NCBI GenBank assembly: GCA_022579005.1
Contig: MU401467.1
Location: 1-64,000 of the forward strand
Length of the DNA: 64,000 nucleotides
Reading direction: 5' to 3'
Source of the DNA: Poronia punctata
Taxonomy: Eukaryota; Ascomycota; Sordariomycetes; Xylariales; Xylariaceae
In this document: piece by piece, positions 12,345 to 43,746 of the stretch
Numbering within the stretch: the stretch's first letter is position 1
How the letters are laid out: each line of letters starts with the position of its first letter
The notes under the pieces: generated by a model
Told to the model about the DNA's origin: nothing
The model's input: the letters and a program-made list of their open reading frames with translations, nothing else
Database searches by the model: none
Program-made: the position numbers and the translations under genes

Positions 12345-13038
12345 GGTGATCAGGGGTTAATAGAATGAAGCGCCGAACAACGAAGCTAAAACGAGTTTGT
12401 GGATGGATGGGTTACGTTTACGCTCGAAGCAATGAACGATATCTTTGCTCTAGTCTAGCTATACAAGCAATATTGAAGGAATAGAAGATGAGCTGCCGTT
12501 GCTAGTGTGGATGTGCGGTGTAAATATCTGATTTGGTCCGTCTTTACCAAAAATGTGTCAACGTCCACACGCTTCCAAGTTATAGCTTCTACAAGTATGC
12601 CAACGGTAAACAGCTTCTCTTTCCATTTCCGCCAAACCTTATATTTGTAGGATTAATGTAGGTAGGCACATCGGTTGATACTTCCTCGTCTCGTTGGTTC
12701 GATATGTCCTTGTGTGCTTGTACATGGGAAAGAACAAGCACCACCGAATCGCGCAGAGGACCTCCCTACCCTTATGGTAAAGATAGGTCAGATATTCCGA
12801 TGATTTCTACTAATTCTCTTCTACAGGCTCTCCATTTGGGCGGCCGGAGCAAGAGTGTATTAAAAAAGGTACCTAGGAAGTATCTTGATATTCAAGTACA
12901 TGTACAGCTAAAAGAGAAGGAAAAGGGCAGCAGTTGATAAAAGACTTTGACATAAACCGGGTCAAGAAAAGAAAACGAAAAAAAAGAAAAAAAGAATGGG
13001 TTGCTATTCCCAGTATATCTAGGAAGCATCAGGAATTG
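12345..13038. other. Intergenic; T-run on minus strand after the tRNA gene
   Basis: No protein gene is seen. On the minus strand, T-rich runs (12978-12992 as A-runs on the plus strand) lie about 50-60 nt beyond the 3' end of tRNA-Lys and are candidate Pol III terminators. The 67-codon open frame covering 12934-13137 runs antisense through the tRNA and is not believed. Confidence 0.5.
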
Positions 13039-13177
13039 AGCCCAATGCGGGGGTCGAACCTAAAGCTTGAGAATCAGCATTTTTTGTTTTCAGATTTGCA
13101 ATGTGATATGAACATGTTGACTCACCCGCAACCTTGAGATTAAGAGTCTCACGCTCTACCGATTGAGCTAACCGGGC
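13039..13177 (-). tRNA. tRNA-Lys(CUU) interrupted in the T arm
   Basis: Read on the minus strand, the gene has acceptor GCCCGGT/ATTGGGC, D arm GCTC-AATCGGTA-GAGC, anticodon stem TGAGA/TCTCA with loop CTCTTAA (anticodon CTT, Lys), and variable loop AGGTT. The T stem begins GCGG, and 66 nt then intervene before GTTCGACCCCCGC. Removing plus-strand positions 13060-13125 gives a perfect T arm (GCGGG-TTCGACC-CCCGC) and a 73-nt tRNA with every stem paired, counting G-U pairs. There is no intron at the usual 37/38 position. Whether the transcript is matured is unknown; without removal of the insert the T arm cannot form normally. Confidence 0.9.
13060..13125 (-). other. Spliceosomal-type intron-like insert inside tRNA-Lys
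   Basis: The 66-nt segment begins GTGAGT, ends GCTTTAG, and has GCTGAT (CTRAY consensus) with its A 14 nt before the 3' end. These are the same signals and length as the protein-gene introns in this window. It lies between tRNA positions 52/53, or equivalently 53/54, because both flanks carry G. The removed segment is inferred from restored tRNA structure, not from RNA data. Confidence 0.8.
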
Positions 13178-43504: not shown

Positions 43505-43698
43505 AAAAGGTTTGCGTCACCTGGAGGCAGTGTAATACCAGGGACACGGTGGAGGCGGTCATGCGCAAGCACAGAGGATACGCCTCCTAAGGGTAAAAAT
43601 TAGAATAATCACGATTGAGTCCAAGTAGGACTCTTTCAGAGATTAAACTGAAAAGAACAGATACTACACTTGATCTAAGCCAAAAGGCAAAGAGAGCT
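43505..43698 (-). ncRNA. U2: U2 spliceosomal snRNA
   Basis: Read on the minus strand from about 43698: stem-loop I region with GCCTTTTGGCTTAGATCAAG, then the branch-site recognition element GTAGTA (complement of 43662-43667) in TGTAGTATCTGTTCTTTTCA, and stem-loop II. An Sm-like site AATTTTTA (43594-43601) comes next. The 3' stem-loop has CCTGGTATTACACTGCCTCC followed by AGG, very like the U2 stem-loop IV. The length of about 190 nt fits. Both ends are estimated by analogy with known U2. Confidence 0.93.
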
Positions 43699-43746
43699 AA
43701 AGAAGAAAGGAAAAGAAAAGGTCCAAAAAAGTTGGGAGGGAAGGCG

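Follow-up and report, generated by a model that had tools for sequence, protein, structure and literature searches.

Candidate mRNA-type introns in the T arm of tRNA-Lys(CUU) genes of Poronia punctata

A family of tRNA-Lys(CUU) genes in the fungus Poronia punctata carries inserts of the kind typical of mRNA introns, at a site that the standard tRNA-splicing enzyme would not be expected to cleave, which suggests that the mRNA splicing machinery helps make a tRNA. Judging from the sequences, a nuclear tRNA-Lys(CUU) gene very probably acquired a U2-type spliceosomal intron in its T arm, and it now exists in nine dispersed copies. The introns would have drifted while the tRNA and the splice signals were kept, and the spliceosome would remove the intron.

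The interrupted gene and its family

We analyzed a 64,000-nucleotide stretch of P. punctata DNA (Sordariomycetes, Xylariales, Xylariaceae), hereafter the window. Two of its proteins, RFC1 and mitochondrial PheRS, match proteins named P. punctata at 100% identity over 98% and 100% of the query, and for its Rgp1 the closest named kin, at 81%, are in Xylariaceae. On its minus strand, positions 13177-13039 match the Rfam tRNA model as one complete tRNA (model 1-71, 49.3 bits; gathering score 29). The gene is a tRNA-Lys with anticodon CTT in which 66 nt are interposed between positions 52 and 53, so that the Rfam match and the exon boundaries bear out the original prediction of such an insert. tRNA gene finders can miss genes of this kind; ARAGORN reported no tRNA in the window. 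The features of the locus are as follows.

13126..13177, minus strand: exon 1 of tRNA-Lys(CUU), positions 1-52, 52 nt, with the A box TAGCTCAATCGG (Rfam tRNA match and boundaries)
13060..13125, minus strand: 66-nt GT-AG intron, GTGAGT...CTTTAG, 3′ end TAG (sequence)
13125-13120, minus strand: 5′ splice site GTGAGT of the intron (sequence)
13077-13073, minus strand: branch-like CTGAT of the intron, with its A at 13074 (14 nt before the intron end)
13039..13059, minus strand: exon 2, positions 53-73, 21 nt; the last G of the intron completes the B box GGTTCGACCCC (Rfam match and boundaries)
12994..13038, minus strand: 3′ trailer, 45 nt (folds, occurrence solely with Lys(CUU) genes, pair counts)
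13033-13026 with tRNA bases 13048-13041, minus strand: trailer hairpin H1 (fold, pair counts)
13025-13007, minus strand: trailer hairpin H2 (fold, pair counts)
13004-12999, minus strand: P3, GCAACC that can pair with GGTTGC of exon 1 (complementarity)
12987..12993, minus strand: run of seven T, likely RNA polymerase III terminator (sequence)

The GTGAGT start, the TTTAG end and the CTGAT with its A 14 nt upstream of the end are all present as first described. Removal of exactly GT...AG gives GCGGG-TTCGACC-CCCGC, a 5-bp T stem with a 7-nt loop, again in agreement with the prediction. Cuts shifted by -1 or +1 yield the identical tRNA because G residues stand at both intron borders, and the unshifted register alone is GT-AG. 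The first G of the intron can replace G53 in the T stem of the precursor, which might hide the 5′ splice site. The same contig carries a U2 spliceosomal RNA gene (window 43506-43700, minus strand, 161.9 bits). AAG makes up 174 of the 289 Lys codons in eight putative reading frames of the window.

We then searched the genome (45.05 Mb, 573 contigs) with the tRNA model and with the Lys(CUU) sequence. The model census is a lower bound, with at least 63 matches, since 63 of 2574 first-look candidates were scored. We found 15 tRNA-Lys(CUU) genes on 14 contigs. Nine carry an insert at 52/53 (the window gene, L009, L010, L011, L012, L013, L020, L021 and L093) and six do not (L001-L006). The inserts are 59, 61, 62, 64, 64, 65, 65, 66 and 91 nt long. 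The GT-AG insert of the window gene is thus more than chance: nine of the 15 Lys(CUU) genes that we found have a GT...AG insert at this site. One copy near a contig end, L093 (381-557), looks to be decaying: an extra nucleotide sits in its exon 1 and its trailer hairpin is weaker, and its 91-nt intron keeps GTAAGT, CTAAC and TAG. A single intron gain would explain the family, given the common site, the residual likeness of the introns and the shared T68 described below. L006 (1501-1573) has no intron and yet carries T68 like the insert-bearing group, so it represents either an intron loss or a branch that predates the gain.

The three tRNA-Lys(UUU) genes that we fetched carry their inserts in the anticodon loop, where TSEN introns normally lie; one of them (L017, 301-529) is followed after some 50 bases by a tRNA with a CAT anticodon. 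A search for GT-AG inserts just before GTTCRA gave 38 matches with one pattern (control 44) and 11 with a second (control 3). We followed up with Rfam 15 plus 16 non-Lys places of the first pattern, four of the six non-Lys loci of the second, and L135 (L136 is the same place as L125). Among the loci checked in this way, and within the incomplete tRNA census, no other tRNA has a T-arm GT-AG insert. On the minus strand of L131 (1489-1655), a 167-nt tRNA-like gene scores 48.4 bits; its anticodon arm holds a long insert that pairs strongly with itself, and the usual arrangement of U33 and anticodon was looked for there and not found. U6 has a single genomic match with no intron, and none of the 47 scored 5S genes has an insert. 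To look for relatives, we searched viral contigs with two exact patterns and contigs of prokaryote genomes with one; neither collection returned a match.

Splice signals and exon conservation

If the inserts are mRNA-type introns, they should carry the signals of such introns. The 5′ splice site is GTAAGT in seven inserts, GTGAGT in one and GTAAGC in one, so GTRAGY in all nine. The 3′ end is TAG in eight and AAG in one, and the final AG is invariant (9/9). Our strict branch site test called for CTRAY or TTAAC with its A 10-22 nt before the intron end. Eight of the nine inserts pass, with the A at 13-17 nt; in 2000 shuffles, the number passing averaged 0.71 and never exceeded 5. The ninth, L011, has CTAAG and fails. 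The fungal branch consensus is given as RCTRAY, 6-36 nt from the acceptor (PMC5832005).

As a yardstick we used mRNA introns of the window itself, a small sample of just five that were placed by the annotated RFC1 and mitochondrial PheRS proteins. They are 52, 52, 54, 52 and 83 nt long and begin with GTAGGT, GTAAGT, GTAAGA, GTGAGT and GTATGT. Their branch sites are CTAAT or CTGAC, with the A 9-14 nt before the end; four of the five pass the strict test, and the fifth has a CTAAT with its A at 9 nt. The tRNA gene inserts, at 59-66 nt plus one of 91 nt, compare with 52-83 nt in these five. By this small yardstick, the inserts resemble local mRNA introns, as had been claimed for the window insert. 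At the DNA level, the inserts have the marks of U2-type spliceosomal introns: the 5′ site and the AG, the branch site, and the length and signals of mRNA introns.

We next compared what the exons and the introns have kept. Among the eight intact insert-bearing genes, 0 of 73 exon columns vary. Over all 14 intact Lys(CUU) genes a single tRNA column does, base 68, which is T in the eight intact insert-bearing genes and L006 and C in L001-L005. Intron interiors, meaning the intron minus its first 6 and last 20 nt, have a mean identity of 48.3% in the eight genes, against 47.2% for shuffled letters (sd 1.0, maximum 50.0). L093, with its extra exon 1 base, was left out of both the exon and the interior counts. 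The closest interiors, those of the window gene and L020, are 71% identical, which argues for common descent. Whole introns of the nine genes, signals included, are 55.6% identical versus 48.9% when shuffled (in this comparison of whole introns and exons, the extra base in L093 shifts its exon window by one position), and this excess is what common descent and shared signals would give. Outside the tRNA, all 10 leader columns from -10 to -1 vary over the 14 intact genes.

In a gene that is dead or never spliced, exons and intron should decay at similar rates. The pattern seen here is the one expected if these tRNA genes work and an mRNA-type intron in them is under selection. Exon likeness could also owe something to gene conversion among the T68 copies, although the converted tracts would have to be short, lie on both sides of each intron and respect base 68. 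The groups differ at two positions, base 68 of the tRNA and base 8 of the trailer. At each, one group has the C of a CpG and the other a T, which we read as probable deamination.

The original prediction had offered two readings, an mRNA-type intron spliced from the gene or a dead copy that happens to carry a precise intron. Eight further loci are interrupted at this very site by introns that have diverged but retain their signals, and the exons of the eight intact insert-bearing genes are identical; the spliced-intron reading is therefore favored, and the sequences support it over the dead-copy reading. The latter is rejected as very unlikely for eight of the nine genes, whose identical exons stand beside intron interiors at shuffled likeness. 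Intact Lys(CUU) copies elsewhere in the genome had been named as a point against the intron. Six intronless genes do exist and could supply the tRNA, which counts against it; this is not decisive, given that the insert-bearing genes show conservation of their own.

Promoter boxes and a structured 3′ trailer

All 15 Lys(CUU) genes have the A box and the B box listed above, and in the insert-bearing genes the first G of the B box is the last base of the intron. In 15/15 genes, the first T4 past the tRNA belongs to a run of at least five T that begins at base 33-52. In 28 other tRNA genes, the first T4 comes at a median of 16 nt (range, 2-136); this first-T4 comparison took 7 of the 15 Lys(CUU) genes, while the T run count covers all 15. 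The A box, B box and T run fit transcription by RNA polymerase III. At the sequence level the genes thus have the cloverleaf, anticodon, A and B boxes and T run of a functional tRNA gene. A CAACAA-like motif lies at -20..-4 in 8/9 insert-bearing genes, 1/6 intronless Lys(CUU) genes and 3/28 other tRNA genes. We rejected CAA at -20..-4 as a general start signal, since it occurs in 11/28 other tRNA genes there versus 10/28 at -60..-44.

The long stretch between the tRNA and the T run proved to be structured. We count 14 copies of its start, TCAATTCCYRATGC, in the genome (control, 1), and all of them sit at the ends of the 14 intact Lys(CUU) genes. In hairpin H1, the trailer can pair with the tRNA's own 3′ strand, GCATYGGG with CCYRATGC, at 8/8 pairs in 11/11 distinct rows. 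Six of these eight pairs never vary, and H1 therefore rests on complementarity more than on covariation. In H2, all seven pairs have changed on both sides and 98.7% of cells pair. The whole structure pairs in 99.4% of cells, a value matched in 0/500 shuffles; its seven double-sided pair changes were matched in 2/500. When the structure is slid by 1-3 columns, pairing falls to 35-55%. For these counts L093, with its decayed H2, was left out, and L001, L002, L004 and L005, whose stems are identical, were merged. A third element, P3, is a CAACC-like sequence after H2; by a raw count of complementarity, 14/15 genes would allow it to form 5 bp or more with the final ten bases of exon 1.

When H1 and P3 form, the acceptor stem cannot, nor can part of the T stem. 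ViennaRNA predicts the H1 fold to be at least as stable as the cloverleaf in 7/8 unspliced and 7/8 spliced insert-bearing genes, the exception being L012. Among the intronless genes, it prefers the H1 fold in L005 and L006 and the cloverleaf in L001-L004. These energy differences of 0.2-8.1 kcal/mol ignore modified bases and tertiary contacts and leave out L093. From these models, we suggest that the trailer may delay folding of the cloverleaf until the intron has been removed. It cannot serve splicing alone because the intronless genes have it too. The idea that the trailer belongs to a known RNA family was rejected, since a scan of L001 gave no Rfam family other than tRNA above its cutoff. 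In Aspergillus niger, two tRNA-Lys(CTT) genes are described without intron and with terminators at 16 and 18 nt (PMC6108506), so neither the intron nor the long trailer is general in filamentous ascomycetes. The structured trailer of the Lys(CUU) genes goes beyond the original prediction.

Proposed pathway, rival explanations and known systems

The site, the splice signals, the conservation, the promoter boxes and the trailer structure are present in the DNA; from the sequence we infer transcription by RNA polymerase III, splicing, the spliceosome as its agent and a role for the trailer. The polymerase would transcribe the gene from its A and B boxes, through the structured trailer, to the T run. 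The B box survives its interruption because the final G of the intron takes the place of position 52. H1 and P3 may then keep the 3′ half of the tRNA outside the cloverleaf and the splice sites open until splicing. The spliceosome would recognize GURAGU, the branch adenosine and the AG, and the intron would leave as a lariat, joining positions 52 and 53 into a continuous T stem. The ends of the tRNA would be trimmed after splicing.

Other classes of intron explain the inserts poorly. Group I or II introns are rejected, with no such Rfam match in the window; at 59-91 nt, the inserts are too short for either. An introner is also rejected: two of the nine introns were used as DNA queries against the genome, and each matches only itself, so the window intron is unique. 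The inserts could be ectopic tRNA introns, cut by TSEN and joined by tRNA ligase as in Cyanidioschyzon merolae and nucleomorphs, with the GT-AG incidental. T-arm tRNA introns are indeed known in those algae (PMC4090602; PMC9602550, at 53/54), and shifted cut registers here would yield the same product. However, the inserts lie at 52/53 and not at the 37/38 of TSEN introns, and the three fetched tRNA-Lys(UUU) genes carry theirs in the anticodon loop. We tested for a bulge-helix-bulge, requiring a 4-bp helix between the cuts, in nine introns and three registers each: 0/27 trials gave 4/4 inner pairs, the best being 3/4, and a TSEN intron with a bulge-helix-bulge is rejected on that count. The diverged introns have no visible shared structure, while GT, branch site and AG are kept. 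We regard TSEN cleavage as highly improbable.

A somewhat less remote idea, though still improbable, is that the loci make a longer non-coding RNA, a tRNA-like domain plus trailer with another job, which is spliced by the spliceosome and perhaps made by Pol II read-through, with decoding secondary or absent. A structured, conserved trailer whose start sequence stands 14 times, solely behind Lys(CUU) genes, would suit such an RNA, as would the covariation of H2 at 7/7 pairs and an H1 fold predicted to be at least as stable as the cloverleaf in 7/8 insert-bearing genes. Against it, the tRNA body is complete and the same as in the intronless genes except at base 68, the T run at base 33-52 is placed as for Pol III in 15/15 genes, and L001 has no non-tRNA Rfam family above the cutoff. 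The remaining explanation, to which we give the least credence, is that the insert-bearing genes are dead or unspliced and that the six intronless genes alone work. The existence of those six and the decay of L093 speak for it, and D- or T-arm insertions are often regarded as pseudogenes (PMC4090602). The evidence on the other side is broad: 0/73 exon columns vary in eight genes whose introns are at shuffled likeness, 10/10 leader columns vary over the 14 intact genes, splice signals survive in nine genes (the L011 branch site CTAAG failing the strict test), and the covariation of H2 includes insert-bearing genes. A spliced, mRNA-type intron accounts best for these observations.

Known systems resemble this one in part. 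Spliceosomal introns occur in rRNA genes too, for example an mRNA-type intron in 18S rDNA. U3 snoRNA genes are not known to have an internal A and B box promoter, and with U3 as host there is no tRNA and no split T stem. In other respects, fungal U3 introns are alike: they are short, GT-AG, with an RCTRAY branch site and a structured RNA host, and some genomes have interrupted and intronless copies together (PMC5832005). Such introns are reported in 138 of 310 fungal U3 genes, and the same source states that U3 and U6 are the sole small structured RNAs so far known to be often interrupted by introns (PMC5832005). The U6 snRNA gene of fission yeast and other fungi likewise holds a spliceosomal intron inside a small Pol III RNA (PMC10484740). 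U6 differs in being part of the spliceosome itself, with an intron thought to come from reverse splicing, whereas the host here is a multicopy tRNA.

Among tRNA introns, that of C. merolae tRNA-Ile(UAU) is also in the T arm, there at 53/54 (PMC9602550), and nucleomorph tRNA genes have T-arm introns of eukaryotic tRNA as well (PMC4090602). These are attributed to the tRNA endonuclease and are bulge-helix-bulge-like, though this is not clear for all nucleomorph introns; the Poronia Lys(CUU) inserts differ in having GT-AG and a branch site and no bulge-helix-bulge. Canonical 37/38 introns interrupt nuclear tRNA genes too, and are present here in tRNA-Lys(UUU), but they lie at another position, lack GT-AG and branch signals, and are cut by TSEN. 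The eukaryotic enzyme is considered to measure from the tRNA body, and when a single eukaryotic tRNA gene has an insertion in its D or T arm, it is mostly taken for a pseudogene (PMC4090602). A 2026 review classes tRNA splicing as spliceosome independent (PMC13149111). Among the literature matches listed, we found no spliceosomal intron in a tRNA gene; an earlier report elsewhere is possible.

In eukaryotes, the introns of tRNAs and those of mRNAs are regarded as belonging to separate worlds, and a conserved family with mRNA-type tRNA introns would join them. If the reading is true, the action of the spliceosome on Pol III products extends beyond U6. We see about an even chance that maturation of the T68 isodecoder, with its nine intron copies (one of them decaying) and one intronless copy, depends on the spliceosome, that lysine-tRNA supply is thereby coupled to splicing capacity, and that the trailer acts as a conformational switch. 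Base 68, T in the insert-bearing genes and L006 and C in the other five intronless genes, would mark the product in ordinary tRNA-seq. The family would then be a natural system for the entry of introns into structured RNAs, with tRNA supply tied to splicing.
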